43,843 bases of DNA from a virus: the IMG/VR virus record IMGVR_UViG_3300031977_002259, positions 1-43,843 of that record; one strand, given 5' to 3'. The notes beneath the pieces were generated by a model that was given only the letters and a program-made list of their open reading frames with translations, ran no database searches and was not told where the DNA came from. Shown here piece by piece: positions 5,216 to 41,624 of the stretch. How positions within the stretch are numbered: the first letter of the stretch is position 1; the number at the start of each line of letters is the position of its first letter. A program made the position numbers and the translations under genes.

Positions 5216-8161
5216 ATGAGAACTATAGGGGATCCGACAAAAGAAGAGGTAAAAAAAAGAATGTTGGCCTCAGGTAAATGGGTAGAGGGGGAGAATGGAG
5301 AGTTGATTAGAGTGCCACAGCAAGACGTTTACGGATTCCCTACCACCGCCCGCGCTCAGGAGCTTTCACAACGTACAGAGCCGTTAAACGAACAGGAGCT
5401 TAGTGAATTCATCCGTTACGGTTTCAGCCCAACCAATCCTGTAAACACCGCTTTCAGTATGGTTGCTGGTGCTCACCCTGTAGGAGCATCAGCAGACATA
5501 TTAGGTAATCTTATAGGTAGAGGATTGAGCTATGGTAGCAACCTTATAGGTAGAGCGGCTCTTAGACAAAGCCCCATACTCCCTACAGATTGGGATGGAA
5601 TCATAAACAGAGCAAATCAAAAACTCAAAGAAGGGTTAGGCATAAAAACAGGTGATGACGCCATAGAGCTTGTCCCTATGCCTGTAGATGTAGATGGGAC
5701 TAGCTTCCCTTCTTTCGATGTGGAAGTTAGAGTAAACGGTAAGACGACAGGACATATGTCCTTTGATCCAATAGATACCCGAAGCGCGGAAAAAATAGCA
5801 GACGAAAGAAGGCTATTAATGGGGGATGTAGATCCTGAGTATGGGTTGATAAGAAACGAGGACTTTCCTTTTGAATTCGAGCCGCAATTACAAGGGAGAG
5901 GTCTTTCAGGAGAAATGACCTCTGCCATTAATGAGTCTTTGAAAGATGAAGGGTTTAGACTGTACTCTAGTTTTGATCACACACCTGAAGGTGCGAGGAG
6001 ATACATTAACATGGCTGAGAAGGGTTATGTAGAACCTATAGACGTGAGGAGCGAATTGAGAGGCAGATACAGATTCAACAAGAACGGAGGTAAGATTAGG
6101 GTTCAGAAAAAAGCGTCCAATGGAATGAGGGTTTTGCGGTCTTGGCCGCCTGACGAGGGGGATCCGTTGCCGTACACGGCGGTATCAGAGTCTACATCAC
6201 CTTATATAACACAGCCTATTCTACCGCAGGAGGCTCAATCTTTAGCTGAAAATCAAGATTATAAAGACGCGCTGGAGGAGCATCCTTTACTACGGATGAT
6301 TGTAGATGATGATCTACGACAGAGAGTTGAAGATCAACAATCAAACTTTTATCTAAGAGAGGCACCACCGTACCTCAATACTAGCCCATATCCGACCATA
6401 TCAGCAGTAGCTGCTAGTCCTGAACTTAGAGAGGAACAAGGAAGAGCAAATCCAGCGTTTACTCTAATGGAATTCTTAACTCCTGTTGGTGACCTGACTT
6501 CGATACTTGGTGGTGTTGGAGATTTGATTCGTGGTGACTATGCGTCTGGGGCCGTTGGAATAGGGTCTGGGCTTTTGTCAGCGATTATTCCAGGCTCTAT
6601 ACCTACTGGAAAGGCGAGCACTAGACTATATGAAAACGCTGGAAAAAATGGTGTTTCTGTAAAATCTATTAGACAAGCCGCATCTGGAAAGGATGTGTCT
6701 GCATCAGAAGCATCCCTACTTAACACGCTTGCCGATAGAGCAGAAAACGCTGGACTGACTCATGTAGATCCTGGTAACATGCAGATGGGTGGGATGCAGA
6801 GACTTCCTAGGTTTAGAGGTGGGAATACTAACCCAGAGTGGGATGAGTTCTTCGGGACGGACAGGCTTATGGGGTTGGACTGGAATAACCTCCAAAATAT
6901 GGACGCCGTTATTAGGGAAGCAAGGCGTGACGTCACCGACGACTCTGAAGTGATACTCCTGAAAGGAGACGATGTTATTTACGGGAATCCAAGCAAAAAA
7001 CACTTTTCTGCAAGTTCAGGGCCATCGAATGTCGGTGTTCATGCCCATGTAAGGGCTATACCTGACCCGTGGGAGACATTGAAAGCGAAGAGAGGGGAGC
7101 CAAGCAGAAACGTCAGGAGTATGCTTGAGATCCAGAGCGATGCATTTCAATCAGGTAAATCGGGGAGGTGGGAACACACTTATCATGAATACGGAGACGA
7201 GCCTATATTCGGAAGTAAAGAGGTTCATAGGATGGTAGCTGAGGATCCAGGTCGGCTTGAAGAGATCTTTGAAAACGTAGAGCACGTAGGACAGCAGGTT
7301 ATCGGGTACCTTAATGACAAGGGGTTCGGAAAGGGGAAATCTCTTCAAGACGTCCTTGGTCTGGAGAAGGTGGTAGAAGGGACTGGTAGCAAGCTGCACA
7401 GAGATGTAGGGTTGCTACAGGAATTCGGTGGCACCGCTGTTGCCGCTCCAGAAGGCGAGGTGGCAGGGTTTAGTAAGCTTCTGGAAGATCTTATTGAAGG
7501 TGGTGACATAACGAGACAAGAAGCGGATGACTTTCTTGTCGCTTACAGCAGGTTTGGCGGTGAGGGGCACTACGACTTCAACTTCTCTGAAAATATAACG
7601 GAAGCGGAGGCCAAAGGCAGGAGAATAGACATGGCGGACGACCTTGATATGGAAGTAGAGAGGCCAAACATAACCAGAGAGCATCCATGGACAAGAGTGA
7701 CTAGTGAGCTGTTAGACATAGGTGTTAATCAGATGAGGCGTGAAGTCAAAGACCCAGACTTCTTGAAGCATGTAGACAAAATAAAGAACATGCCTGACCC
7801 GTCTAAAAACCCTATGTCTAAAACCTGGGAGCGGGAGGCGCTTGCGGCATTCTTCGAGGATGGGGCCAAAAAAGGAGCTGAGGCATACCGATTCCCCACC
7901 ACAGAAACGGTTCGAACTATACAGGGCTGGGATCCAAATAGAAATTTTGACATGATCCTTAATCGATACCAACGCCTCCCTGATCAGATGGAGAAGATGG
8001 GAGTTGACGTAAGTCAGATTACGAACGTCACGGACGGATTCGGTAATACTTGGCTTGAGATTCCCGTTTCCGCCGTCCCTGCATCTGTCAAAGTGTACAA
8101 GATCGGGGGACGCATAAGGGTCAATAAGGCTAAGAAGAAAGGTATGAGAGTGAAGAAATGA
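5216..8161 (+). CDS. Polyvalent protein with GNAT-like and EIQSD-type modules and GGKIRV tags
   Basis: 981 residues. Residues about 160-275 resemble a GNAT acetyltransferase fold: a beta meander followed by QLQGRGLSGEM (about 224-234), which looks like the acetyl-CoA binding loop, then a helix and SSFDHTPEGARRYINMAEKG. Residues about 600-650 contain KHF...NVGVHAHVR...MLEIQSDAFQ, a signature known from large phage and prophage polyvalent proteins. Two copies of a basic glycine motif occur: NGGKIRVQKKASNGMRV (about 289-305) just after the GNAT-like module, and GGRIRVNKAKKKGMRVKK at the extreme C terminus. The protein starts MRTIGDP, like the MRTT/MRS starts of three polyvalent genes further right. 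Probably a virion or ejected effector protein; the substrate of the GNAT-like part is unknown. A perfect terminator follows directly. Confidence 0.75.
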   Translation: MRTIGDPTKEEVKKRMLASGKWVEGENGELIRVPQQDVYGFPTTARAQELSQRTEPLNEQELSEFIRYGFSPTNPVNTAFSMVAGAHPVGASADILGNLIGRGLSYGSNLIGRAALRQSPILPTDWDGIINRANQKLKEGLGIKTGDDAIELVPMPVDVDGTSFPSFDVEVRVNGKTTGHMSFDPIDTRSAEKIADERRLLMGDVDPEYGLIRNEDFPFEFEPQLQGRGLSGEMTSAINESLKDEGFRLYSSFDHTPEGARRYINMAEKGYVEPIDVRSELRGRYRFNKNGGKIRVQKKASNGMRVLRSWPPDEGDPLPYTAVSESTSPYITQPILPQEAQSLAENQDYKDALEEHPLLRMIVDDDLRQRVEDQQSNFYLREAPPYLNTSPYPTISAVAASPELREEQGRANPAFTLMEFLTPVGDLTSILGGVGDLIRGDYASGAVGIGSGLLSAIIPGSIPTGKASTRLYENAGKNGVSVKSIRQAASGKDVSASEASLLNTLADRAENAGLTHVDPGNMQMGGMQRLPRFRGGNTNPEWDEFFGTDRLMGLDWNNLQNMDAVIREARRDVTDDSEVILLKGDDVIYGNPSKKHFSASSGPSNVGVHAHVRAIPDPWETLKAKRGEPSRNVRSMLEIQSDAFQSGKSGRWEHTYHEYGDEPIFGSKEVHRMVAEDPGRLEEIFENVEHVGQQVIGYLNDKGFGKGKSLQDVLGLEKVVEGTGSKLHRDVGLLQEFGGTAVAAPEGEVAGFSKLLEDLIEGGDITRQEADDFLVAYSRFGGEGHYDFNFSENITEAEAKGRRIDMADDLDMEVERPNITREHPWTRVTSELLDIGVNQMRREVKDPDFLKHVDKIKNMPDPSKNPMSKTWEREALAAFFEDGAKKGAEAYRFPTTETVRTIQGWDPNRNFDMILNRYQRLPDQMEKMGVDVSQITNVTDGFGNTWLEIPVSAVPASVKVYKIGGRIRVNKAKKKGMRVKK

Positions 8162-11367: not shown

Positions 11368-13188
11368 TTACACCGCGTTATTGAGAAAATGTGTATTTGC
11401 TTTCAGATTTATTTGAGATTGCTGTCCTAATTGGCTTGAAACGGGCTTGTACAAAGGCTTTTGAGTTGTCCACTCTTTGAACCCAGTATGGCTCAAATCA
11501 AAAATAAATTTGATTGGTTCATCTAAAGGAGTGGGCTCCCCACCTGTCTCTACCTCTCTAATCTTCCTCACGTGAAGCTCCGTCAACTTCCTCAGATGCA
11601 TGTCAGGGGCCTGAACCTTTCGGTGTATGGTAAGGAAGCAGTCCGCCCGATTGACGAACTTGCCTCCCCCCTCCGTATCTTCTGCATACGGGGCTACAGG
11701 CAGACCATCGTCACCCTTGCGCCGCTGTGCTTCGGTCACGGCATGCATGTTCAACCACACAGCCACGTTGTGAGACTTAGAGAACGTAAGGAATTCTGAT
11801 GCCGCCTCGTAGTGGTAGTCGTGAGCCCCAAGTCCGCTGTTACCGAGCTCAAGCTTGAGACTGTTGTACGGGTCGATGAAGATGCCGTCTAGATCCTGTT
11901 GCTTCATTGTCTTCTCCATGAAGAGCACAATGTCGCTGTAGCTATACACATCGTGGTTGTTGATGATAGTGAAGTGCTGTTGAACCCACTTGTATGCCGC
12001 CTTGCGTTCGGCGTACCCCATGTCCCCTACTTTCCTGCCCTTGGCAAATTGCATAAGGGTCATCTTCACCGATGCAGTTCGATTCTCAGAACTGTATATC
12101 AGCCACTTCCAATCGTGCCTAACTGCGGAGTTGGCGATGAGGTATAGCATCATCGTGGTCTTACCTACGTTGGAGTGACCATTGACGATTACAAACTCCT
12201 TCTTGTACCTGAAGTGCTTGTCAATCAACTCATTGCCAGTATCCAAACCGACTTCGATCTTCCCATTGGCGTAGTCATCTATCCACCTAAAGTCCTCATC
12301 GTCAGATGAAATGAAGGACATATCCCCGTCATTGAGCAATAGCTCACGCTTCGCGTCTTTCTCATTTGCAACGAGCTCCTTGATGGGCATATTCTTACCT
12401 GACTCAATCCCATCGCGGATGGTGTTGATAGCATTCTGCTCGGAGTCGATATCACGCTTGTTTATCTCTCGCATAAGCACCCGCACCACCTCATCTTCCT
12501 CCATCCTACCAGCGGATATGAATCCGCCGCATAGCCTAGCCGCTGAGTGTAATGCTTTGTGCTTCTCCCCATCGTCAGCCATACGTATCATACGTGCGGC
12601 AAGATTGAGCTTCATGTAGTCGGTTACAACACCTTCCCTCTCAATCGTTTGTCCAAGCTCAGCTTTTTCGGATGTAAACATCCCAAACTTATCGCTGTCC
12701 TTGATGATTATGTCAGGGTCGTATGACTCAAAGCAAGCCCTAGACTCATTAATGCCTGACGGGTCTACCTCAAGTGCATACTTGCGTTCAAAGTACCTTG
12801 ATATGGCTCGGAAGTGGTCCCTGTGTCTTTCTGGGTTCGTTATACGTACCAACGCTTTGACCCCGTCACCTGAAGGACTAGTCCAGCAAGCACACACGTA
12901 GTCGTCAGTACCCAAAGCCTGCTTGGTCTCCTCAACGTTAACGTGATCAAAATCGAGCACAATGATGCCTGAATGCTCGAAGAGCGCGTCATCCTTCCTA
13001 GACGAAAACTCCCCGCTGAAACAAACAACGGGGAGCTTCTTTTTTGCCTCTTTATCACCTTCTCTAATCTGTGAAATCAGTTCCTTTGACTTTCCCTCCT
13101 TTATTCTTCGGAGTGATTGGCTCAGAGTAATATGATTGGGACCGTTGATGTCCTTTATATCCCTGAATATCGTTATTTTGTTTGTCAT
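11368..13188 (-). CDS. Primase-helicase: BT4734/VirE_N-like N terminus fused to DnaB/RecA-type ATPase
   Basis: 606 residues. The N-terminal 170 residues match the BT4734/VirE_N family: VCFSGEFSSRKD, HSGIIVLDFDHV (72-83), SPSGDGVKALVRI and ESRACFESYDPD. This is a primase-associated domain common in Bacteroidota and their phages. The C-terminal half is a RecA-type ATPase with Walker A GHSNVGKTT (337-345), Walker B LDGIFIDP (433-440) and a later NMHAVTEAQRRKG segment. Together they fit the replicative helicase with primase function. The start MTNKITIFRDI aligns with the usual beginning of the family. The upstream gene overlaps by 125 bp, unusually long for this compact genome. Confidence 0.88.
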   Translation of the reverse strand: MTNKITIFRDIKDINGPNHITLSQSLRRIKEGKSKELISQIREGDKEAKKKLPVVCFSGEFSSRKDDALFEHSGIIVLDFDHVNVEETKQALGTDDYVCACWTSPSGDGVKALVRITNPERHRDHFRAISRYFERKYALEVDPSGINESRACFESYDPDIIIKDSDKFGMFTSEKAELGQTIEREGVVTDYMKLNLAARMIRMADDGEKHKALHSAARLCGGFISAGRMEEDEVVRVLMREINKRDIDSEQNAINTIRDGIESGKNMPIKELVANEKDAKRELLLNDGDMSFISSDDEDFRWIDDYANGKIEVGLDTGNELIDKHFRYKKEFVIVNGHSNVGKTTMMLYLIANSAVRHDWKWLIYSSENRTASVKMTLMQFAKGRKVGDMGYAERKAAYKWVQQHFTIINNHDVYSYSDIVLFMEKTMKQQDLDGIFIDPYNSLKLELGNSGLGAHDYHYEAASEFLTFSKSHNVAVWLNMHAVTEAQRRKGDDGLPVAPYAEDTEGGGKFVNRADCFLTIHRKVQAPDMHLRKLTELHVRKIREVETGGEPTPLDEPIKFIFDLSHTGFKEWTTQKPLYKPVSSQLGQQSQINLKANTHFLNNAV

Positions 13189-13438
13189 CTCTTGAAATCA
13201 TAAGCAGGATTAAGTATCCTGTAAGGTCTATTAATGTGTCTTCTGTGCTATCGTTTAGCCCAACGTTTTGTATACGTTTAAGCTTGTCGTCAATTCTCTG
13301 CCGCAACCCATACTCAGCGTTAACTGATGAGAATATGTTCAGCGGCTGTAGTGCAGCGTCTCCATAAGCTTCGTTCTTCAGAAGAAGCAAATCTTTGACT
13401 TCGTTGCACTTAGATACTATCTTGTTTCTTGTGCTCAT
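13064..13438 (-). CDS. DUF1599/Nmad1-like protein
   Basis: 124 residues. Residues 10-85 carry LLKNEAYGDAALQPLNIFS, LRQRIDDKLKRI and DTLIDLTGYLILLM. This is the pattern of the DUF1599 family (nucleotide modification associated domain 1), small helical proteins of phages and bacteria linked by context to DNA base modification. The last 40 residues (polar, with NKGGKVKGTDFTD) have no counterpart in the core domain and are encoded in the 125 bp that overlap the helicase gene in another frame. No modification enzyme is evident next to it, so the partner is unknown. Confidence 0.75.
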   Translation of the reverse strand: MSTRNKIVSKCNEVKDLLLLKNEAYGDAALQPLNIFSSVNAEYGLRQRIDDKLKRIQNVGLNDSTEDTLIDLTGYLILLMISRDDKQNNDIQGYKGHQRSQSYYSEPITPKNKGGKVKGTDFTD

Positions 13439-25109: not shown

Positions 25110-26552
25110 ATGCGCACAACCAAAGGGCCTGGAGACCCACCTAAGTTTGGAATATCTAAAAACCTTCTACAGATTCTAGGGTCTTATGGAAAGACAAGGC
25201 AAGAAGCTGAACAAGACCCATACTATGAGGACCGTCTTGATGTCACCAAAGAGGATGTTTACAGATTTATCTTAGACAACCTTGTTGACAGCATGACTGA
25301 GGGGGGTGTATCTGGGATGAAAAACCAAATGGGGAAGGTTAGGTTACTGGGGCCAGATGAGCCTAGGTATTCAAACTTGGAAGGTAGGGCTTACTTTGAT
25401 CCTAACACCAATACTGTCAATCTAAAGTCTCTTTCTGAAGACTCTTCATTTACGAGAGGTAGTACAGAGGGTGAAGAGTACACTCACTCTATACAAAACG
25501 CAGACCAGTTCGGTAAATACAATGAACAAGGGAAAGATTACAGGCCTGGTCAGGAAATGGATAGACCGCTCATTAAAGAGCTTGCAGACATAATTTCTAA
25601 TCCTAGTGGAGGTTATCCAAGGGGGGTATTTGAATGGAACACTATTCCTTCAGGGTATTTTAAGGGCATGAAGCAACTCAATGTTGCTGATAGAGACATA
25701 TTCAGCACAGCAGATCCCCATTACTATGATGGGGCATACTCTCAAAAGGAGTTTGAGGGTATGATGGTTCCAGGCTTAATTCTTGCTAAGAAGATGGGCC
25801 TTATAGGGGATGAAAAAGTTGATAGGTATGATATACCAGACATAATAGATAGATATAACTCACTAGTAGCAAAAAGGCCAGATGAGGACGCAGTCGATGG
25901 CATGAATTGGTTTCAAGCTGTCCCTCGACACGCGAGAAATTTAATAGCCGTCATGCAGACCTTATACGATAGGTCTTCTGAAGAGCCTGAGGCTTTAGAT
26001 GCCTTAGTGAATTTCCTAAATCAGGATATCCATATGAATGATGAACTGTATCCTGATCTTGTAAAAAAACAGAACGGAGGTAGAGTGATTAAGTACAACA
26101 ACGGCGGAAAAGGACCACAATTCGTGCAAGAAGGGGCGGTCTCTAAACCGCCTATAGACGAACGCATCTACGAAGCGATGATGCGGTATCTAGACAGCGC
26201 CCCACTAGAAGGTTGGCATAAAGCTGAAGACATGGTGGATCCAGAGACAAGCCCTAGGTTTGACGCGCTGAGGCATATGCTGGCTACCTCAGAGACGGTG
26301 CAAGAGTTGAAGGAAGATAGGGGGTACCCCGCCCCACTAGCTATGCTGGCAGCCAATCTATTTGGATTGGGGCATGAGATAAAGAACTTTCATGGGGTTA
26401 GGTCTGCTGCTGAGGACTTGTTCAACAACTTTATAGGGAGCATACCAGCAACCGTATCAGACGATCCAGAGAAGATCGATCAGATGATAAAAATGCTTTC
26501 TTATTTTACACCTGACGGAAAGGACAAAACAGATGAGAACTACACGAAATAG
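25110..26552 (+). CDS. Two-module polyvalent protein: metallopeptidase-like plus DUF6973-like
   Basis: 480 residues. Residues 1-315 contain GSTEGEEYTHSIQN (EExxH at about 122-126) and EFEGMMVPGLILAKKMG. The region is homologous to the C-terminal half of the 990-aa protein at 27535-30507 and looks like a zincin fold in which the first His of HExxH is Glu. A glycine-basic linker follows (NGGRVIKYNNGGKGP, about 322-336). Residues 345-480 show DALRHML, FGLGHEI and SAAEDLFNNFIG, the D..RH, HE, D..NN..G pattern of DUF6973-like proteins. Starts MRTTKGP. Likely a virion or ejected protein; catalytic activity is uncertain because of the altered HExxH. Confidence 0.7.
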   Translation: MRTTKGPGDPPKFGISKNLLQILGSYGKTRQEAEQDPYYEDRLDVTKEDVYRFILDNLVDSMTEGGVSGMKNQMGKVRLLGPDEPRYSNLEGRAYFDPNTNTVNLKSLSEDSSFTRGSTEGEEYTHSIQNADQFGKYNEQGKDYRPGQEMDRPLIKELADIISNPSGGYPRGVFEWNTIPSGYFKGMKQLNVADRDIFSTADPHYYDGAYSQKEFEGMMVPGLILAKKMGLIGDEKVDRYDIPDIIDRYNSLVAKRPDEDAVDGMNWFQAVPRHARNLIAVMQTLYDRSSEEPEALDALVNFLNQDIHMNDELYPDLVKKQNGGRVIKYNNGGKGPQFVQEGAVSKPPIDERIYEAMMRYLDSAPLEGWHKAEDMVDPETSPRFDALRHMLATSETVQELKEDRGYPAPLAMLAANLFGLGHEIKNFHGVRSAAEDLFNNFIGSIPATVSDDPEKIDQMIKMLSYFTPDGKDKTDENYTK

Positions 26553-27534
26553 TTGGCCACCAGGTCGCGGATCAGCCACTAGACAGGATAGCCTGAACGC
26601 ATACAACGCTGCTGTGGAGCTTTTACGGGCCCTTGAGCAACAAGGATACGATCTCTATGACGTGAGACCATATGATGATATTAACCGTATACTGGATAAG
26701 CATCATAGACGGGCTAGGGGGGAGTATAACGAAGATGAAATAAGACAATATGAGACGTTTATAGAAGACATGAAAGAAGGCTATGAGGATTTTTACCCTG
26801 CTGAGGTTCCTAGGTTTTTACATGGACAGTTTCCTGAGGACTACTGGTGGCCTAAAGGGGAATATCCGACTATTGATGAATACTATTCTATATACGACAA
26901 CACAACTGAAGGAAATGTCACAAGGGCAAGAGAAATGACTACGGGAGTTATGAATCCAAATCTACCTACTGGTTATTACGATATCAACATTGATCCTCAA
27001 GGAATAGCAAAAGCGTCTGCGCAGTCGGATTACGTAGAACTTCCATATTACGACCCTATAGCTGTAAAACCATACGACCTTCTTACCGAAGAAGAGAAGA
27101 AAGAGCGTAGAGAGAAATATGGGCCAGAAAAGAAATATGAACCAGAAAAGAAATCAAATAGAACTTCAACCCCGCGCCGCCCCAGGGTTGTTATTCCTGA
27201 ACGTTTAGAGCCTAGAGGTTTAACATATGAAACTCCTGAAAGAGACATTATTAGAGATGTTCTAAAACCGTCAGAATATGGTAGGGAGCCACAGCTAATC
27301 TATAAGAGTAGCAATAGAACCAGGACGGGACAAGAGCCGAACTACTACAGGGTCTGGGACGATAAGGAAAAGCAGTGGAAAATGCGTCCTGTAGAGCCAG
27401 AAGAGTTAGATTTTTATCTTAGAGAAAACAAAAGAGTAGAGCCTAGAGTAACCCCACCGATATCTTTCAACAAAGGAGGTAAGGTAGTCAAGTATAAAAC
27501 TTCACGCAATAAAATGCGTGCAATAAAAAGATAA
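26533..27534 (+). CDS. Virion-type protein with C-terminal KGGKVVKYK tag
   Basis: 333 residues (MRTTRNSWPPGRG...), overlapping the previous gene by 20 bp. The N-terminal 130 residues are helical with many Tyr and Asp; a charged EEEKKERREKYGPEKKYEPE stretch (about 196-215) and a basic RTSTPRRPRVVIPERL segment follow. The C terminus is VTPPISFNKGGKVVKYK and then a basic end NKMRAIKR. The VTPPISF(N/S)KGG(K/R)V ending recurs at the end of the next protein. No catalytic domain recognised. Function as a structural or ejected protein is inferred from the shared tag and operon. Confidence 0.7.
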   Translation: MRTTRNSWPPGRGSATRQDSLNAYNAAVELLRALEQQGYDLYDVRPYDDINRILDKHHRRARGEYNEDEIRQYETFIEDMKEGYEDFYPAEVPRFLHGQFPEDYWWPKGEYPTIDEYYSIYDNTTEGNVTRAREMTTGVMNPNLPTGYYDINIDPQGIAKASAQSDYVELPYYDPIAVKPYDLLTEEEKKERREKYGPEKKYEPEKKSNRTSTPRRPRVVIPERLEPRGLTYETPERDIIRDVLKPSEYGREPQLIYKSSNRTRTGQEPNYYRVWDDKEKQWKMRPVEPEELDFYLRENKRVEPRVTPPISFNKGGKVVKYKTSRNKMRAIKR

Positions 27535-30507
27535 ATGAGAAGTGTAAGTGATAAAAAACCTCCAGGAGACATAGAAAGACTCTTGTTTCCAGTATACCCC
27601 AGTCCAGAGGAGATGAATAATATAGGGGATTCCCCCTACCCATATCAACCAGCCACACCTCAGTTAGGTATGGACGATATATTGAAATATTTGGTGTCTG
27701 AACGAGGAGGAGATCCCGAACTATGGAGAGACCTAGCATACTATATCGGATTTCATGAGTCTGGTCCACACCAAAGGATGAGCCCTACTGCTAGACAGAT
27801 TTCTGATGGCGGTGTTGAGGGTCCAGCCAGAGGGACTTATCAGTTTGAAAAAGATTCTTTTGATACAGCAAAACAGAGGTATAGAAACCTGTTTTCTGCA
27901 ATGAGAGATATGGGGTACAAAGGTGATATGGATCAAGATATACTGGAGGCTAATAATGCTGACGAACTACCTCTAGATAAACAGACGGCGCTCTTGTACG
28001 CAAACCTTATACAAGGACCAGCAAAACTGGCTGATTATGTTTCTGGGGATATGAGTGCTACAGACCTATGGCTCCAAGGGCACAAGCTTAAAGAAGCGGA
28101 AGGCAATAGAGAACGGTTTGAGGAGAGTATGAGAGCGGCAGACGAGCAGAGAGAGACTTACTACCCTTTTGTTGGTAACAACCTTAGATCAGTAGATACC
28201 GAATCCAAACCCATACTACCTGCTGAAAACAATATTGGAGGTCGTGTTGCTGGAAACAAGAGCGGTGGAGGAGCTGAGAGTGATGATGACACTTCTATTA
28301 CAGACGGGAGGGGGAGAGTTATAAAGTACAAAAACGGGGGTAGACCAGGTGGTTTCTTGTCCTCTAATGCTAGAGACGGATGGCCGAAAGCCCACAAGTC
28401 GTACTATCCTTTCTCAGGTAGGGATGTAACGGTCGAAGATGGTGTTACTACCGTAGAGAATCGTCAAGGCTATGACTCTGGTATGAAAGAGATGCTAGAA
28501 CTGATAAGAATGGGGTCAGGGGGAAGCAGAAGACAAATAAGTTTGCCTACTGGAAGAGAGTATAAGGATACCGACCTTATGAGAACCACCACTAGATATG
28601 CTGGCGATGACTTTATTGATCAAAAATCCGCTAGATATAAGCTACATAAGGACGATAAAGCGAAAACCTTTGATCAGTATAAAGGAGTAAAAACACCTAA
28701 AGGGTCTAAATCCGTAGAGATACAAGGGGAAGATCTGAATTGGCTTCAAAGACAGTTCCCTAGATTGTTCTTGGAGAGGTACAAAACCAAAAGCAAGTAC
28801 AACGACGAAGGGGAGTTGGTGAAAAAAGTTAAGGTTTCCAGGGCTGGAGGTAGAGAAGTAAAGAAATACCCTACTAGTGCAGAGCTGGATGCTATTATAG
28901 AACAAGATATAAAAGCTGCTCAGGCTCAAGACAACACAAACGCTTCAGGGGGCAGGGTGGTCAAGTATAAACACGGGGGTCGTCACGATGATCCACCAAA
29001 CTACAGTCTCGGAAAGCAAGTCTTGGATTACCTCGCGGGGTATGGTCAGGCCAGACCACAAGAAAACAACAGATTCGACGCCACCCTGCAGGACATGGCG
29101 GACTTCTTCATGTCTCGCCAGGGGCAAGAGTTAGGCACAGAACCTAAACGAAGATACGTATCGGGTGAGGGCTTTGTTCCCGCCCCTTCTGAGCGGGAGG
29201 ATTTTGAAAGCATGCTGGGTCGCACGATGATCACAAATGACAAGGGTGAGGCCAGGAAATACACCCGCATGATGCAGGAGTATTTAGACGAACGAGCGGA
29301 AGACGCTGAGCAAAGGTCGTTCGTGGTCCCTGGCGCTGTAGATAAAGAGACGGGGGAGAGGGTAACTAGAAGTGAGTACCTGAGGCGTCAGGAAGAAGGT
29401 AATGCATTTGATACTACGCTCTCAGCGCCGATTGTGTACAACTACTTGAGTGAGAACCCTTCAGCTAGAGGTGTGGCTGCGGAGGAGTTTTATCATGCTG
29501 TCCAAACAGCCAACAATGCAGCAAAGGGAAGTATCCTTGACGACATCACTAACAAGGGCACCTCGGAGGCGATAAATGAGCTCATGGAAATGAATTACTA
29601 TAATTCCAAGTATCCCCATGGTCTGTTGCACGACGGTACAACATTTGACACCCTCAACCTATACCAGGCCAATGAGCCCCGCGATAACAGCGATAAAGGT
29701 TTTTATGATGGGGTACACCGCAAAAGCAGTGGTGAAGATGCGAGATGGGGTATGAATCTGTACTACCTGGGTGAAGATCAGGGTGAGGGTGACGCGGCCA
29801 TAAATTCTGGTATTTACTTCGCTCGTGAGATGGGGATCCTGCCAGAGGGTGAGATCACGGCCCAAGACCTACCAGAGATTCTGGAGAGGTTCAAGGGATA
29901 CACAGCCACACAGCCTGGAAGAACGGAGTTCGACTTAGAAAAACTCAAGGAGTGGAAGCCTGATGGAAGAAAGATTGTTAAGATCGGAAAGGATGGGAAG
30001 GTCATTCTAACCAAGTATGGTCAGAAGTGGATGCAGGATGACGAGAATAAGTTGCGGTTCAGGGAAAGAACCATGACCAAGGGTGAGGGTAAAGAGGCCA
30101 GGCTGGACAATCGTTACATGAGGATGCTGGAAGATATTATTACTGATGCCGCTAACCAACAGGGTATTTTCGATCCAACCAACATGAACCCCTCCATTGC
30201 TCGTGAAGGATATGAACGAAGCCTTAATTCTGGATACACGAAAGACTACAAGCGACGAAGTCCCGACCACCCAGCCAATAGATTCAGTAGTGGAAAGATG
30301 CCGATTGATTTGTTATTGGACATCCTTAATACTGGCGGGGGGCGTAGTAAATCATACAGAGAGCGGTCAGCCGAGATGGACTTGTTGAGAGGCAAGAGTG
30401 AAAGAGCAAGGAAAGAATATGACATAATTATGGAACAAATCTACGGTCGGCCTATAGTGACCCCACCTATATCTTTTAGTAAAGGAGGCAGGGTCAGTAA
30501 TAATTAA
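27535..30507 (+). CDS. Three-module polyvalent protein with lysozyme-like N terminus
   Basis: 990 residues, ATG overlapping nothing (TAAATG junction). Residues about 45-205 resemble a lytic transglycosylase: YYIGFHESG with Glu75 as likely acid, then GPARGTYQF (96-104). This would cut peptidoglycan at entry. Tag-like linkers occur at about 235 (GGRVAGNKSGGG), 257 (GRVIKYKNGGRPGG) and 470 (GGRVVKYKHGGRHDD). Residues 485-980 are homologous to residues 1-315 of the protein at 25110: LDYLAGYGQARPQ, AAEEFYHAVQTANN (EExxH near 650) and INSGIYFAREMG. The end is VTPPISFSKGGRVSNN. Probably a virion-associated lysin and ejected protein. Confidence 0.75.
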   Translation: MRSVSDKKPPGDIERLLFPVYPSPEEMNNIGDSPYPYQPATPQLGMDDILKYLVSERGGDPELWRDLAYYIGFHESGPHQRMSPTARQISDGGVEGPARGTYQFEKDSFDTAKQRYRNLFSAMRDMGYKGDMDQDILEANNADELPLDKQTALLYANLIQGPAKLADYVSGDMSATDLWLQGHKLKEAEGNRERFEESMRAADEQRETYYPFVGNNLRSVDTESKPILPAENNIGGRVAGNKSGGGAESDDDTSITDGRGRVIKYKNGGRPGGFLSSNARDGWPKAHKSYYPFSGRDVTVEDGVTTVENRQGYDSGMKEMLELIRMGSGGSRRQISLPTGREYKDTDLMRTTTRYAGDDFIDQKSARYKLHKDDKAKTFDQYKGVKTPKGSKSVEIQGEDLNWLQRQFPRLFLERYKTKSKYNDEGELVKKVKVSRAGGREVKKYPTSAELDAIIEQDIKAAQAQDNTNASGGRVVKYKHGGRHDDPPNYSLGKQVLDYLAGYGQARPQENNRFDATLQDMADFFMSRQGQELGTEPKRRYVSGEGFVPAPSEREDFESMLGRTMITNDKGEARKYTRMMQEYLDERAEDAEQRSFVVPGAVDKETGERVTRSEYLRRQEEGNAFDTTLSAPIVYNYLSENPSARGVAAEEFYHAVQTANNAAKGSILDDITNKGTSEAINELMEMNYYNSKYPHGLLHDGTTFDTLNLYQANEPRDNSDKGFYDGVHRKSSGEDARWGMNLYYLGEDQGEGDAAINSGIYFAREMGILPEGEITAQDLPEILERFKGYTATQPGRTEFDLEKLKEWKPDGRKIVKIGKDGKVILTKYGQKWMQDDENKLRFRERTMTKGEGKEARLDNRYMRMLEDIITDAANQQGIFDPTNMNPSIAREGYERSLNSGYTKDYKRRSPDHPANRFSSGKMPIDLLLDILNTGGGRSKSYRERSAEMDLLRGKSERARKEYDIIMEQIYGRPIVTPPISFSKGGRVSNN

Positions 30508-30519: not shown

Positions 30520-30945
30520 ATGGCAACACTAACAGTAACAATAAAAGAAGAGGTCGTACTGAACGGCAACGAGCACGGGTCTGAGAATATCATTGACATA
30601 GGTAATGTCGATAGTATGTTTGAGAGGCTTATAGACTGCACTGTAACAGAGGTGCCTCTGTTGTCTTTTGGGAGTACAGTAACTGGAGATACATTTGTTG
30701 ACGATACTGTGAAGTACCTTCGAATTACAAATCTTGACGATACTAACTATGTTACACTTAGAGTACTTGGTGCAAGCAAAGAGTATTTCGTCGTTTTAGA
30801 ACCTAAGAACTCATATGTGCTATTCAATGATGACATGGACGCCAACGCCACTGGATCTCAAACTGCATCTATCTCTTTCATTGATGAAATCAAAGCGGCA
30901 GCAAACACCGCTACATGTCAACTATCAATATTCGCAGCAGCATGA
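30520..30945 (+). CDS. Putative virion structural protein
   Basis: 141 residues (MATLTVTIKEEVVLNGNEHG...). Beta-rich, with VKYLRITNLDDTNYVTLRVL and KEYFVVLEPKNSYVLFND. This small beta-sandwich-like pattern recurs in minor virion proteins of aquatic phages, often encoded near tail genes. No enzymatic motif. It ends with an ATGA overlap to the 41-aa gene. Confidence 0.65.
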   Translation: MATLTVTIKEEVVLNGNEHGSENIIDIGNVDSMFERLIDCTVTEVPLLSFGSTVTGDTFVDDTVKYLRITNLDDTNYVTLRVLGASKEYFVVLEPKNSYVLFNDDMDANATGSQTASISFIDEIKAAANTATCQLSIFAAA

Positions 30946-31067
30946 AGATAAAAAAACCCAAATACAATAAGGGCGGTAAGTTCCCTGACCTGACTGGTGA
31001 CGGAAAGGTCACTAAAGCAGATATACTGAAAGGTCGTGGGGTTGGTATGAAAAAGAAGAAAAAGTAA
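30942..31067 (+). CDS. Tiny protein with KGGK and EF-hand-like DLTGDGKVTKADIL motif
   Basis: 41 residues: MKIKKPKYNKGGKFPDLTGD, then GKVTKADILKGRGVGMKKKKK. The DLTGDGKVTKADIL segment has the spacing of a dockerin/EF-hand calcium loop. Very similar tiny proteins occur in many aquatic phages, always uncharacterised. It is coupled to the upstream gene by an ATGA overlap. It carries the same KGGK motif as the large polyvalent proteins. Confidence 0.72.
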   Translation: MKIKKPKYNKGGKFPDLTGDGKVTKADILKGRGVGMKKKKK

Positions 31068-36239: not shown

Positions 36240-36371
36240 ATGGCAAAAGTAGATTCCACATACGAAAAGAGAAACAAAGTTTCTAGACCTGGCATTCATG
36301 CCAAAACGAAAACCTCATCCAACAAAAGATCTAAGAATTACAAAAAGATCTATAAGGGTCAAGGGAGGTGA
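36240..36371 (+). CDS. Tiny basic phage protein ending in YKGQGR
   Basis: 43 residues: MAKVDSTYEKRNKVSRPGIH, then AKTKTSSNKRSKNYKKIYKG and QGR. Very basic. Short proteins with the RPGxHAKTKxSxNKxSKNY...GQGR pattern are frequent next to terminase genes of aquatic phages and remain uncharacterised. Its final codons contain a strong Shine-Dalgarno-like GGGAGGTGAT that directly precedes the terminase ATG at 36373, so it may act as a translated leader for terminase. Confidence 0.7.
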   Translation: MAKVDSTYEKRNKVSRPGIHAKTKTSSNKRSKNYKKIYKGQGR

Positions 36372-36372
36372 T

Positions 36373-38472
36373 ATGGATGAAAATGTTATCAAGATTGACC
36401 CTAACGGCACAGAGGGCGAAGTTATCGAACTCGGTGGAATACATATTTGCCTACCAAAGAAACCCCCCAAAAAAGAAATCCTCTTCCACGACAAGCCGAA
36501 GGCTATGCAACTGTGGGAAAGGTCACATATGCCAGAGGAGCTGCGTAGGGTTCGCTCTATGGATGAGTGGGCAGAGATGCCAAGGGAGTTCCGTGAACGT
36601 TTCAGTCCATATATCGAGAATGAGTTTAGGCGTAGACGTGACGGCGTTTGGTTTTATAACAACGGTGTCCCTACGTACATTACAGGCAGGCACTATATGG
36701 CCTTACAATGGACGAAGTTTGATGTAGGATATCCAAACTATCTGAGCTTTCAGAGGGATATATTTTTGCATATGGCAGCATGCGAAGCTGATTCTAATTG
36801 CATAGGTCAGATATACACAAAGTGTAGAAGATCTGGATACACTAATATATGCGCTTCAGTACTGGTTGATGAGGCGACACAAGTGAAAGAAAAGCTGCTG
36901 GGTATACAGAGTAAAACTGGTAAAGATGCCCAGGAAAACATATTTATGAAGAAGGTAGTCAATATGTTTAGGAACTACCCTTTTTTCTTCAAGCCTATAC
37001 AGGATGGAACTACAAACCCCAGGATGGAGCTTGCTTTTAGAGAACCTTCTAAAAAGATCACTAAAAAGAATAAGACAGCACAGGTTGGCGATGCACTAAA
37101 CACGGTAATAAATTGGAAAAACACTACTAATAACGCATACGACGGTGAGAAGCTTCACTTGTTGTATCTAGACGAAGCAGGAAAATGGGAAAAACCTACA
37201 GACATAAGGGACGCCTGGAGGATTCAGAGGACATGTTTGATCGTGGGCCGAAAAATAATAGGAAAGGCTCTAGTCGGAAGCACCGTAAATCCAATGGACA
37301 AAGGTGGAAAGGAATACAAGGACCTTTGGGAGGATTCGGATCCGATGGAGAGGAATTCGAATGGGAGGACTAGATCTGGACTTTACAGGCTTTTTATACC
37401 AGCTCAAAACTCTCTAGAAGGGTTTTTTGATAAATACGGGAATCCAATAATAAACAACCCAGATAAGCCTGTAGAAGGTATTGATGGGGATGATATAGTT
37501 ATTGGTGCTAAGACATACCTAAAGAACGAGAGGGAGTCATTTAAACAACAGCCATCTGAGCTTAATGAGGTCATAAGGCAGTTCCCTTTTACTACGGATG
37601 AAGCTTTTAGGGATAGTATTGAAGGTAGCTTGTTTAATATCGGTCAGATATATGAGCAAATAGATTTCAATGACAATCTCTTCCCAAACCCTGTAGTACA
37701 GGGGAATTTTGTCTGGCGAGACGGTCAAAAAGATACAGAAGTTATATTCAAACCAGATAAAACTGGTAGATTTTATGTGTCATGGCTACCACCTAAAAAC
37801 CTTAGGAATAACAAAAAAGAATCCTATGGGAAGTTGATACCACCAAATGATTTGATTGGATGTGGGGGCGTAGACAGCTATGATATTGATGCTACTGTTG
37901 ACGGGAGGGGATCTAAAGGTGCTTTGCATATGTACAATAAGTTTCATATGGAGCACCCTTCTAATATGTTTGTTTTAGAGTACGCTTCTCGTCCTCCTTT
38001 AGCTAAGATATTCTACGAGGATGTACTTATGGCTGCGTTTTTTTATGGGTATCCTTTGTTGATAGAGAACAACAAATACGGTATAGCTAGGTACTTTGAG
38101 GAAAGGGGATATGATGGGTACCTGTTGGACAGACCAGATCATTTGAAAGTTCCTGGATCGACATCTAACGTAAGAACCAAGGGCGTACCCTCTAACTCAG
38201 CAGATGTAATACACTCTCACGCCCAGTCTATAGAGGCATACATACACAATCACGTAGGTATAAACAGAGAGACTGGTGATAATGGTAAGATGTATTTCAA
38301 TAGAACTTTAGAGGACTGGATTGGATTTAAAATTACAGACCGCACAAAGTACGACTTGACTATATCATCTGGACTCGCTTTACTTGCTGCTCAAAAAGCA
38401 AAACCAAAAGAAGCCACTAACTTCTCAGAAAAGAAGTTCTTTAGAAGATATAAACCTATAAACAGAGTTTAA
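36373..38472 (+). CDS. terL: Terminase large subunit
   Basis: 699 residues from the ATG at 36373 (MDENVIKIDPNGTEGEVIEL), chosen because it follows a rare perfect ribosome-binding site; an upstream ATG at 36298 is in frame but overlaps the tiny gene. The ATPase motif I is deviant (YTKCRRSGYTN, about 148-158). Walker B is LLYLDEAG (about 263-270). The C-terminal nuclease has GGVDSYDID (about 498-506) with the first catalytic Asp and later NADVIHSHAQS-type residues (here NSADVIHSH). It cuts and pumps DNA into the procapsid through the portal encoded next. Confidence 0.9.
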   Translation: MDENVIKIDPNGTEGEVIELGGIHICLPKKPPKKEILFHDKPKAMQLWERSHMPEELRRVRSMDEWAEMPREFRERFSPYIENEFRRRRDGVWFYNNGVPTYITGRHYMALQWTKFDVGYPNYLSFQRDIFLHMAACEADSNCIGQIYTKCRRSGYTNICASVLVDEATQVKEKLLGIQSKTGKDAQENIFMKKVVNMFRNYPFFFKPIQDGTTNPRMELAFREPSKKITKKNKTAQVGDALNTVINWKNTTNNAYDGEKLHLLYLDEAGKWEKPTDIRDAWRIQRTCLIVGRKIIGKALVGSTVNPMDKGGKEYKDLWEDSDPMERNSNGRTRSGLYRLFIPAQNSLEGFFDKYGNPIINNPDKPVEGIDGDDIVIGAKTYLKNERESFKQQPSELNEVIRQFPFTTDEAFRDSIEGSLFNIGQIYEQIDFNDNLFPNPVVQGNFVWRDGQKDTEVIFKPDKTGRFYVSWLPPKNLRNNKKESYGKLIPPNDLIGCGGVDSYDIDATVDGRGSKGALHMYNKFHMEHPSNMFVLEYASRPPLAKIFYEDVLMAAFFYGYPLLIENNKYGIARYFEERGYDGYLLDRPDHLKVPGSTSNVRTKGVPSNSADVIHSHAQSIEAYIHNHVGINRETGDNGKMYFNRTLEDWIGFKITDRTKYDLTISSGLALLAAQKAKPKEATNFSEKKFFRRYKPINRV

Positions 38473-38498: not shown

Positions 38499-40910
38499 AT
38501 GGCAAATAAAAATTCTTCTAGTTTTCCCGATCCTTTGCTCCCCAGGGAGAAAAAAGAAATGAAGGAATATGGACTGAAGTACGCTAAGGCTATACAGTCT
38601 CAATGGGGGAATGGAAGCGACTATAATTCGCTTTTCAGAAAGAGAAGAAAGATATTCGACAGAAACAGAGACTATGCCAACGGAACTCAAGACACAACGG
38701 TATATAAGCAGATTCTTACATCTCTTGATCCTAACAATGGTGACGGGAGTCTTGTTAATCTTGATTTTACCCCTGTACCTATTCTATCGAAGTTTGCTAG
38801 GATTGTTGTCAATAAGATCCTATCTAGGGATCCATACCCAAACCTCGAAGCGGTGGATCCGCTTTCTTCTTCGGAAAAGAACAAACAGAAAAGAAGAGTA
38901 AACCTTCAAGTACAAGCAAAAGAGCAGCTAAAAAAACTAAAGGAGCAACACGGTATGGTGCTGGATATGGATCCAGACCAGATGCCAGAAAGCCTAGAAG
39001 AAGCAGAGATTCTGTTTGACACCAACATAAAAACGGATGCAGAAGTAGCCGCTCAGATAGGGACAAACATGACTCTTGAGTGGTGCAACTTCAACGACTC
39101 TACTTACAGAAGGTGCGTAAATGATATGGTTGCTCTGGGTATGGCTGTAACTAGAAGGACCAACGACCCTACTTATGGTATAAGTGTTGAGTATGTAGAT
39201 CCTTGCAACTTCGTTCATAGCTATACCGAGGACCCTTCTTTTGAAGACATGATCTACGCGGGGCACGTTAAAAGAGTAACCATATCTGAACTCAAGAGAC
39301 TTGCTGGCGATGAGCTTACAGAAGATGATTATAAAAAGATACAGAAACTTGCTACCAGGCATAACACCAGCGGGGGCCCATACGACTCAACGTATGACAA
39401 GATTACCGAAAAGTACAACATGGGGTACGATGAGTACATGGTTGAGATACTTGACTTTGAGTTTATGTCAACGGACACCAACTTTTTTGAAGAGAAAGAA
39501 AACCGATTCGGAAACACAAACTTCTATGACAAAGGGAGCTCCTACAAAGAGAAGACAAACAGTGTGTTTTCAAGAACCCCGCACAAGCTAGAAGTCATGA
39601 ATGTATATAGCGGAACCTATATAATGGGATCCGACTATATGTTTGGATATGGGCTGAAGTCCAATATGCCAAGAAACATGCATGATATAAGTAAGACAAA
39701 TATGTCTTTTTCTGTTGTGTCTACTAACATGAGGAACATGATTCCTAAGTCTATGGTCGATAGCTGTGTTGGTTTTGCTGACATGCTTCAGCTTACTCAC
39801 CTTAAGATCCAGCAATCTATTGCAAAAGCAAAGCCTGATGGGTTGATTATAGACATCGAAGGTCTTGAAAACGTACAACTTGGAAAGGGTGGTGAACTCC
39901 AACCACTTGATCTTCATGATATATACGAGCAGACTGGTGTATTCTATTACAGAAGTAAAAACCCTGAAGGAGGATTTCAAAACCCACCAGTAAGAGAGAT
40001 AGGAAATAGCATAAGAAATATCAATGAGCTAATCGGTTTGTATAACCATTATCTCAGAATGATTAGAGACGCAACTGGAATCAACGAAGTAATGGACGCT
40101 TCATCACCTAAGAGTGAGGCTTTGGTTGGTGTTAGAGAGCAAGCTATCGCTGCTGCTAACAACGCTATATACGATATAACAAACGCCTCCTCTATGTTGT
40201 ACAAGAAAGTATGCTCGGATATTGTAAAGTGCCTTCAAATACTTCCTCAGGACTCTGTTGTAAGTAGGCTTTACGAGAACGCTATAGGTAAAAAGAATGT
40301 AGAGGTTCTTAATTCTTTTAGCCGTTTGCCTATGTACAATTTCGGGGTTACAGTTCAAAAAGAAATGGAGGATGCAGAAAAAGCATATTTGGAGCAAAAC
40401 ATACAGATATCACTTTCTCAAAAAGAACTAGACATAGAAGATGCTATGGCGATAAGGTCTATGAAAGACATCAATCAGGCGGAGAGATTATTGGTTCTTA
40501 GAAGAAAGAAAAGAATAGCTACGAATCAGCAGATTGCACAACAGAATATCCAAGCTCAGTCTCAGGCTCAGATACAGGCTTCTCAAGCTCAAGCTCAAAT
40601 GAAAGCCCAAGAGATGCAACTAGAGTCTCAACTTTCTGCTCAAGAGCTTCAGCTTAAAAATCAACTTGAGATTCAGCTTGAGTCGGTTAAGCATGAGTTT
40701 AGAAAAGAGATCGAAACCATCAAAGCTCAAGCAACGCTTGGATTCAAAGAGGACGACAAGAACTTCAGAGAAAAGCTAGAAGTTTTGAAAGAAGAAGGTA
40801 AAGATAGGAGAATAGGTATGCAGGCTGAGAATCAAGAGAAGATGATTGAGAAGAGGAATGAACCAGAGATACAGGAAGATTCTATTGATAATTTTAATGA
40901 ATTTGATTGA
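38499..40910 (+). CDS. Portal protein
   Basis: 803 residues from the ATG at 38499 (MANKNSSSFPDPLLPREKKE); the upstream TTG at 38478 lies inside the promoter box and is rejected. Features of portal proteins: RKIFDRNRDYANG near the N terminus, VPILSKFARIVVNKIL (about 92-107), a long alpha/beta wing region, MIRDATGINEVMDASSPKSE (about 520-539) and QAIAAANNAIYDITNAS. The last 150 residues are a Gln/Ala-rich coiled coil (QAQSQAQIQASQAQAQMKAQ) ending acidic. The portal forms the dodecameric ring for packaging and tail attachment. Direct adjacency to terminase supports the call. Confidence 0.85.
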   Translation: MANKNSSSFPDPLLPREKKEMKEYGLKYAKAIQSQWGNGSDYNSLFRKRRKIFDRNRDYANGTQDTTVYKQILTSLDPNNGDGSLVNLDFTPVPILSKFARIVVNKILSRDPYPNLEAVDPLSSSEKNKQKRRVNLQVQAKEQLKKLKEQHGMVLDMDPDQMPESLEEAEILFDTNIKTDAEVAAQIGTNMTLEWCNFNDSTYRRCVNDMVALGMAVTRRTNDPTYGISVEYVDPCNFVHSYTEDPSFEDMIYAGHVKRVTISELKRLAGDELTEDDYKKIQKLATRHNTSGGPYDSTYDKITEKYNMGYDEYMVEILDFEFMSTDTNFFEEKENRFGNTNFYDKGSSYKEKTNSVFSRTPHKLEVMNVYSGTYIMGSDYMFGYGLKSNMPRNMHDISKTNMSFSVVSTNMRNMIPKSMVDSCVGFADMLQLTHLKIQQSIAKAKPDGLIIDIEGLENVQLGKGGELQPLDLHDIYEQTGVFYYRSKNPEGGFQNPPVREIGNSIRNINELIGLYNHYLRMIRDATGINEVMDASSPKSEALVGVREQAIAAANNAIYDITNASSMLYKKVCSDIVKCLQILPQDSVVSRLYENAIGKKNVEVLNSFSRLPMYNFGVTVQKEMEDAEKAYLEQNIQISLSQKELDIEDAMAIRSMKDINQAERLLVLRRKKRIATNQQIAQQNIQAQSQAQIQASQAQAQMKAQEMQLESQLSAQELQLKNQLEIQLESVKHEFRKEIETIKAQATLGFKEDDKNFREKLEVLKEEGKDRRIGMQAENQEKMIEKRNEPEIQEDSIDNFNEFD

Positions 40911-40924: not shown

Positions 40925-41233
40925 ATGAAGTGTAAAAAATCTTACAAGTCTGGTGGTAAAACTCCTGCATGGACACGTAAAGAAGGGAAGGACCCTTCTG
41001 GTGGTCTAAATAAAAAGGGTGTCGCTTCATATCGCCGTGCTAATCCTGGAAGTAAACTGAAAACAGCAGTAACTACAAAACCATCTAAACTTAAGAAGGG
41101 GAGTAAAGCTGCCAACAGAAGAAAGAGTTTTTGTGCTAGGATGACTGGCATGAAAAAAAGGCTTACTTCCGCTAAGACGGCTCGTGATCCAAATTCACGA
41201 ATAAACAAGTCACTTAGAAAATGGAACTGCTGA
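40925..41233 (+). CDS. DUF6321-like basic protein
   Basis: 102 residues from the ATG at 40925 (MKCKKSYKSGGKTPAWTRKE). PSGGLNKKGVASYRRANPGS is followed by RRKSFCARMTGMKKRLTSAK and ARDPNSRINKSLRKWNC. This ordered set (GGLNxKGxxSY, RKSFCARMxGM, ARDPNSRINKSLRKWNC) defines a widespread uncharacterised phage family, which I recall as DUF6321. It is strongly basic with conserved Cys, and often near terminase or portal genes, so a DNA-binding virion or packaging role is plausible. It also starts with a SGGK motif. Confidence 0.78.
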   Translation: MKCKKSYKSGGKTPAWTRKEGKDPSGGLNKKGVASYRRANPGSKLKTAVTTKPSKLKKGSKAANRRKSFCARMTGMKKRLTSAKTARDPNSRINKSLRKWNC

Positions 41234-41442
41234 TGCCTGAAAACCTTACTCACTTTGAATTTCTTGTTGTTGCTGGGGGGCTAATTGGATTTTGGTTGAA
41301 ACACCAATCTGATTTTACTACTATGAAAGCTAGAGTAAAAGCTCTTGAGGGTGATAACGGGGAGCTGAAAAAAAACATAGAAACCCTCTTGAAAGAGATA
41401 CAAGAGATAAAACTTCTTCTTGCTAAAAACCAAATGCAATGA
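41221..41442 (+). CDS. Small membrane protein with coiled coil
   Basis: 73 residues, overlapping the previous gene by 13 bp. Hydrophobic segment FEFLVVAGGLIGFWL (about 12-26), then a heptad coiled coil (MKARVKALEGDNGELKKNIE, then TLLKEIQEIKLLLAKNQ). The layout, one membrane helix followed by a coiled coil, resembles XhlA-type holin-associated proteins or i-spanin-like proteins. It may work in lysis with the endolysin at 31126. Confidence 0.65.
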   Translation: MELLMPENLTHFEFLVVAGGLIGFWLKHQSDFTTMKARVKALEGDNGELKKNIETLLKEIQEIKLLLAKNQMQ

Positions 41443-41624
41443 AGTCTGTTAAGCGTAACAAAGGCGGAAGCTTAGATATTACGCAGAAGTCGGTTTCTGT
41501 CCCTCCTCCTAGTGGGTATCACTGGATGGAGGATCGCGGGAGATATTTTCTTATGAAGGGCGATTACAAGCCACACCCAAAAGCAGTAGAGGAGGCCAAG
41601 TTTAAGCTCGTAAACCATAGTTGA
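41439..41624 (+). CDS. Small protein with N-terminal NKGGS motif
   Basis: 61 residues: MKSVKRNKGGSLDITQKSVS, then VPPPSGYHWMEDRGRYFLMK and GDYKPHPKAVEEAKFKLVNHS. The centre (PPPSGYHWMEDRGRYFLMKG) is typical of a tiny uncharacterised phage family. Another KGG-tagged protein of this genome. Linked to both neighbours by ATGA overlaps. Confidence 0.7.
   Translation: MKSVKRNKGGSLDITQKSVSVPPPSGYHWMEDRGRYFLMKGDYKPHPKAVEEAKFKLVNHS

Follow-up and report, generated by a model that had tools for sequence, protein, structure and literature searches.

Cargo proteins in described phage systems

Except in T4 and a handful of other phages, little is known of how proteins are selected for carriage inside the head. 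In T4, the capsid targeting sequence (CTS) is an N-terminal stretch of about 10 residues that is removed by the gp21 protease. The T4 internal proteins are diverse and share only this targeting sequence (PMC3012670). Polyvalent proteins are large and modular, are thought to be packaged and injected as well as processed by zincin-like metallopeptidases, and include peptidase-like and peptidoglycan-attacking modules (PMC5512222); the words 'linker' and 'glycine' are absent from the main text of that study. The crassvirus PhicrAss001 encodes gp45, or cargo protein 1 (C1), which has been found in virions by mass spectrometry and cryo-EM, with residues 425-552 seen bound to the portal and residues 214-245 to the tail barrel (PMC10172136; PDB 7qog).

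The stretch analysed here (the window, 43,843 nucleotides) is a 43.8-kb fragment of an uncultured, marine, Bacteroidota podovirus-like phage. Its twin, IMG/VR contig 3300031974_003050 (65,437 bp), contains the window at 99.9% identity and supplies the structural module that the window is missing. The terminase (36298-38469) and portal (38499-40907) of the window match phrog_6681 and phrog_6547, respectively, and the nearest named phages are the Manatee Spring uncultured podovirus (48% for the terminase), Maribacter phage Panino, the elemoviruses and Cellulophaga phages. The truncated gene at 2-4462 is the 3' part of a gene for a 2732-residue protein with an LPD38 domain, whose position resembles that of the RNA-polymerase-associated cargo proteins of crassviruses.

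Several proteins of the window carry a short glycine/lysine-rich tag. Among known systems the T4 internal proteins come closest in kind, but the T4 CTS is unrelated in sequence and N-terminal on all carriers, whereas the present tags lie at N termini, C termini and joints; the tag thus does not belong to that family. In architecture the nearest parallel is offered by the polyvalent proteins: the proteins encoded from positions 27535 and 25110 likewise join several distinct domains in one polypeptide and their giant neighbour has LPD38, although no polyvalent-associated domain (LPD, zincin, ART) is matched in Pfam by the 5216, 25110 or 27535 proteins (named, as below, after gene position). Crassvirus C1 (gp45, PF25725) resembles the tag carriers in its C-terminal KGGKV-basic tail and its many internal xxGG repeats. 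The papers searched, which are part of the literature only, contain no description of the motif or of DUF6321, a domain found in one of the tagged proteins.

The tag and its positions in the window

A first-pass annotation had reported a basic glycine motif recurring in the large proteins of the window, and all of its sites proved to be in frame. The consensus is refined here to GG[KR][VI]xKYxxGG[KR], with an N-terminal form, M[RK]xxKKYxxGG, and a C-terminal form, KGG[KR][VIL]xx followed by a basic tail. Window proteins contain three exact copies of the GG[KR]VxKY string and a relative contains one, against 0.0 in shuffled proteins. All features described below are on the + strand unless indicated.

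The 25110 protein is composed of two modules. It starts with the leader MRTTKGPGDPPKF (25110..25148), which alignments identify as a degenerate N-tag, within module A (25110..26069); the full tag NGGRVIKYNNGGKG (26073..26114) separates module A from a C-terminal module with no family match (26142..26549). The next protein (333 aa, 26533..27531) ends in the tag FNKGGKVVKYKTSRNKMRAIKR (27466..27531), which is conserved in locus L231, where the 368-aa homologue is tagged at both ends, with MRTTKGPGDPPKFGGRVIKYKDGGR at its start and the C-tag at its end, the full tag coming after MRTTKGPGDPPKF.

The 27535 protein has at least three modules. Module 1 (residues 41-208, 27655..28158), of lysozyme-like sequence (HESG...GPARGTYQFE), is followed by a tag region, IGGRVAGNKSGGG...DGRGRVIKYKNGGRPGG (28234..28353; pLDDT mostly <35; conserved in L231), and then by module B (28381..28845), delimited by the L231 alignment. 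Behind module B lie the tag variant AGGREVKKY (28843..28869), which is SGGREVKKY in L231 and had been missing from the first-pass list, and the full tag SGGRVVKYKHGGR (28945..28983), which stands ahead of module A' (28987..30459; EEFYHAVQ). A C-terminal tag, IVTPPISFSKGGRVSNN (30454..30504), is absent from the L231 protein, which is cut off before this point. Module A' (residues 485-975 of the 27535 protein) is a paralogue of module A (residues 1-320 of the 25110 protein), with about 27% identity over the module, so that the description of the tagged proteins as otherwise unrelated does not apply to this pair. The EExxH...Q motif of module A (EEYTHSIQ) looks like a degenerate zincin. No Pfam or PHROG family is matched above threshold by the 5216, 25110 or 26533 protein, and the sole PHROG match of the 27535 protein is a weak one to a PHROG without an assigned role; the earlier label 'virion-type' is therefore provisional.

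In the 5216 protein, the C-terminal tag VYKIGGRIRVNKAKKKGMRVKK (IGGRIRVNKAKKKGMRVKK; 8093..8158) has an internal copy, FNKNGGKIRVQKKASNGMRVLR (NGGKIRVQKKASNGMRVLR; 6074..6139). Shorter forms occur in small proteins, namely a 50-aa protein (30915..31064) with KYNKGGK, a 102-aa basic protein directly after the portal gene (40925..41230) with KSGG, and a 61-aa protein (41439..41621) with an N-terminal KRNKGGSL, whose homologues in relatives start MNTVKYNKGGKL or MKAVKYNKGGKL. A 124-aa protein ending KNKGGKVKGTDFTD is encoded on the - strand (13064..13438) in a nucleotide-metabolism cluster; it had been labelled a DUF1599 protein, but phrog_1485 was matched and no DUF1599 model was matched in Pfam. 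Although tagged, this protein looks metabolic, and would be an exception to a tag confined to cargo. The KGG of the terminase (37300) was considered and rejected as a tag, being part of the terminase's own sequence and conserved in all relatives.

Conservation of the peptide

The tag is conserved at the protein level. When tag copies of the window are compared in pairs, different codons encode 9 of the 17 identical residues, and the internal copy and C-tail of the 5216 protein share 35/66 DNA identity. The string VTPPISF[NS]KGG, previously noted at two protein ends, is real; the two underlying DNA stretches agree at 37/51 positions and differ at many synonymous ones, which points to an old duplication and not to a fresh copy. 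The third tag of the 27535 protein changes from SGGRVVKYKHGGR in the window to SGGRIVKYNNGGK in L231, the consensus being kept while other positions differ.

Recurrence across viral contigs

A set of 2.9 million viral contigs was scanned for DNA encoding KGGKVxKY, with the reversed peptide, equal in composition, as control. The peptide was found at no fewer than 120 viral-contig loci (at least 120), against 50 in all for the reversed peptide. The scan pattern specified no residue after Y, and yet a second GG followed at exactly +9 in 79 of 100 in-frame matches among those listed, compared with 0/37 in the control (p about 1e-18) and 3/65 among matches in bacterial genomes, which are mostly ordinary proteins and were used as background. 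The same spacing is present in the window in NGGRVIKYNNGG, SGGRVVKYKHGG and RGRVIKYKNGG. The carriers among the matches listed are mostly small or repeat-bearing proteins, and none of the eight that were tried had a PHROG match; their ORFs adjoin, again among the matches listed, genes for SU10-type adaptors (9 members), capsid, terminase, portal and lysozyme. Three viral-contig proteins of 350-480 residues (L110, L134 and L135) contain many KGG, TGG and GGG repeats, and L110 and L135 have no PHROG match.

Closer to the window, at least one tagged ORF was found in 23 of the 35 relatives with >12 kb of sequence, mostly upstream of the terminase. The N-terminal [KR][YF]xxGG form is carried by 39 of the 1287 ORFs from relatives and by 1 of 646 from unrelated viral contigs (Fisher test). 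The full motif is absent from the core capsid and tail proteins of the twin, and the full tag from the named relatives Panino, elemovirus, phi38:1 and phi13:2. Searches by tblastn with the 25110 and 27535 proteins gave no match in annotated phages, and those with tag peptides found little, probably owing to low-complexity filtering. Loose KGG or GG[KR] counts over whole genomes, only modestly above shuffles, are a poor test of the tag, since they are barely raised and the terminase KGG is that protein's own conserved sequence.

Termini, joints and module homologues

Across 893 non-redundant ORFs from the group, the density of GG[KR] over the first and last 30 residues is double that of the interior, an excess due in part to more K and R at the ends, whereas GG[DE], GG[STA] and GG[VIL] are rarer at the ends than inside. 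Homologues of module 1 were found at 18 loci, both as stand-alone proteins and in a crassvirus-like cargo protein. The L414 protein (259 residues) has module 1 by itself, with the N-tag MRLKYQNGGRPGG and the C-tag QNGGRIGKKIKVLKK / QNGGRIGKKIKVLKKEG near its end; in the L416 protein, RENGGRVVKYQHGGKHD joins module 1 to a second module and another tag lies close to the C terminus; and L034 carries a tag near the N terminus of its homologue. The leader GPGDPPK[YF], at the N terminus of the 25110 protein, is found directly behind a tag (GGKGPGDPPKY) inside the 27535 homologue of L231. These arrangements suggest a reading in which a formerly terminal tag stayed behind at the joint when genes fused.

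The first-pass annotation had suggested fold prediction as a check that the motifs are always inter-domain; joints and termini are borne out by homology, the fold models being confident for module 1 alone. In the AlphaFold model of the 27535 protein, module 1 is a helical fold with pLDDT 74-92 over most of residues 41-208 and 56-60 at residues 81-100, and the tag region is of low confidence (mostly <35); the 25110 model, obtained from a single sequence, was too poor to use (mean pLDDT 34). A fold search returned no significant match (best chitinase C, E = 2.1), so that 'lysozyme-like' describes the look of the sequence, and a module 1 profile search against solved structures gave nothing convincing.

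The tag in crassvirus cargo proteins

The C terminus of PhicrAss001 gp45 is AKGGKVRTKKKKGLTYG. GG[KR] is present in the last 20 residues of 7/13 C1 orthologues compared with 1/48 other complete ORFs (p 3e-5, a value that overstates the case, the orthologues being related), and a looser pattern, picked after viewing the sequences, in 9/13 compared with 1/48. A C-terminal GG[KR] tail, found also in three window/twin proteins, is a shared trait and not a formal criterion. C2 (gp46) and gp47 of PhicrAss001 are without the tag, as are the C termini of gp46-like proteins, which argues that it is not required for packaging in general. In C1 (gp45 of L431, and L437-L448), xxGG repeats are frequent: GG occurs 1.4-2.7 times per 100 residues, and mostly <0.9 times in the gene that follows. 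The two phi38:1 proteins that end in GG[KR] plus basic residues are both annotated as structural.

In a crassvirus-like 76.5-kb contig (G021), a 1691-aa protein contains module 1, the tag GGRIKLQRGGRP at residue 300 and GGRFRYQQGGQ at 664, with a crAss_CARG1 domain (PF25725; 7e-9, residues 690-794) directly behind the second tag. A tag, a lysozyme-like module and a CARG1 domain are thus joined in one polypeptide, and by gene order the gene is flanked by muzzle-like and C2-like genes, as expected for cargo protein 1. crAss_CARG1 was matched in this contig only, with no match in the window or the twin. In the twin, the protein at the C1 position (L234:14907-15965, 352 aa) has FKKNGGYIPKANKG just ahead of a stretch that weakly resembles the portal-bound domain, although the comparison (hhalign probability 21%, P 0.001) is only suggestive. 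The resemblance of the crassvirus C-tail to the tag could also be convergence.

Interpretation of the tag

The suspicion that the motif is a common mark is supported: it is far above chance, common to unrelated phages, placed at module boundaries and termini, and its residues are kept while codons vary. In other phages it is found close to virion-assembly genes, and it forms the end of C1/gp45, whose status as virion cargo is proven. The reading favoured here, with a likelihood that we put at about even, is that the tag is attached to accessory late proteins, at their ends and joints, and that the virion carries these proteins as internal cargo to be ejected. The tagged proteins of the window, lysozyme-like and peptidase-like modules among them, would also be virion cargo. 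The tag might help to load or position the cargo by binding packaged DNA or the lumen of the portal and tail, and the basic glycine hinges might allow the modules to be unfolded and threaded through the tail in turn; the fused proteins would then derive from cargo genes that were once separate, the tag persisting where they joined. The first-pass annotation had offered three functions, and circumstantial evidence is strongest for capsid loading or ejection, because gp45 and many of its orthologues end in the tag (PMC10172136).

The main rival, which we consider rather unlikely though worth taking seriously, is a non-specific basic, glycine-rich, unstructured linker or DNA/RNA-binding patch with no recognition partner and no say in virion entry. 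The tag does have a strong basic character, in the model it occupies a low-confidence stretch beside a confident domain, the small tagged proteins beside portal genes are very basic, and the different capsids and portals of the carrier phages suit a universal ligand such as DNA. On the other hand, the fixed V/I, K and Y and the exact 9-residue GG spacing exceed the needs of a flexible linker, and L231 keeps the consensus of the third 27535 tag while other positions vary. Because the carrier phages differ in their portals and terminases, any dedicated capsid receptor would need to be common to them as well, and the spread may point instead to a common ligand, e.g. packaged DNA; DNA binding could therefore be part of the same mechanism as a cargo tag. 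Composition or chance has very little probability for the full motif, which was refuted as a chance product by the 0.0 exact motifs in shuffles and by the +9 GG test, despite the richness of these proteins in G, K and R near their ends and the modest excess of loose KGG/GG[KR] counts over shuffles; single KGG triplets, such as that of the terminase, can arise by chance or be specific to a fold.

Proteases commonly cut at Gly-Gly, and a phage or host protease could act there and free the modules before or after ejection. Such a processing site suits tags between modules and the peptidase-like modules of several tagged proteins (HEMSHAQ in L416, EExxH in the window), and has been proposed likewise for polyvalent proteins with zincin domains (PMC5512222). 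It was the protease site among the first-pass functions that came to be disfavoured, because tags are found at the very ends of proteins, N-terminal as well as C-terminal, and the search of the twin's structural module for a PHROG protease found none, although one may be present; many tags lie near a terminus, in proteins of 50-100 aa or in several copies within one small protein, where cutting would do little, and the conserved K-Y and second GG go beyond a simple GG site. Processing is accordingly held to be improbable. Lower still is the probability given to a gene-boundary cassette, in which repeats recombine genes for module shuffling and the peptide has no function of its own. The tag does mark the joints of fused genes and does accompany mobile mini-modules (an EF-hand-like loop, DUF6321 and a KQAVAIAL tail), but copies in the same genome differ at many synonymous sites (9/17 residues; 37/51 and 35/66 DNA identity), so that the DNA is too divergent to guide recombination while the peptide is kept.

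Beyond the cargo tag favoured for the window, a single tag exchanged horizontally between unrelated aquatic phages and crassviruses would constitute a general virion-cargo signal for interchangeable effector and wall-degrading modules; this wider proposal is tentative and on balance doubtful. If true, phages would load and eject such modules via one signal, and a recognisable tag would allow cargo proteins to be read from sequence, including those of uncultured phages and of crassviruses, the commonest human gut viruses. PhicrAss001 permits a direct test, its cargo protein being tagged and its virion structure solved.

Small modules associated with the tag

In the 102-aa protein at 40925, KSGG is followed by DUF6321 (PF19846, 1.4e-20; 74.2 bits against a cut-off of 28.5), a small basic domain found C-terminally or stand-alone in 531 phage records, mostly of cyanophages and pelagiphages. 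The domain spans 72 positions and is here preceded by KGGK or KSGGK, the KGG tag being a separate short motif ahead of it; elsewhere, DUF6321 forms the C-terminal part of large phage proteins (PHROG 3477, 727). The 50-aa protein at 30915 has, after its tag, one EF-hand/dockerin-like loop, FPDLTGDGKVTKADILKGRG; against dockerin type I (Pfam) the protein scores 16.7 bits, with a cut-off of 22.9, and it has one loop only. This loop lies behind a KGG tag in 7 of 8 unique cases, and the mini-module, noted in the window, L019, L073, L170, L227, L231 and L415, is mobile, occurring alone or in N-terminal, internal or C-terminal positions. A further mini-module of this sort is the C-terminal tail KIRVLKKEGxPQKQAVAIALxM, found directly after a GG tag in different proteins (L058:1-1947, L414:1048-1827 and L416:417-2186).
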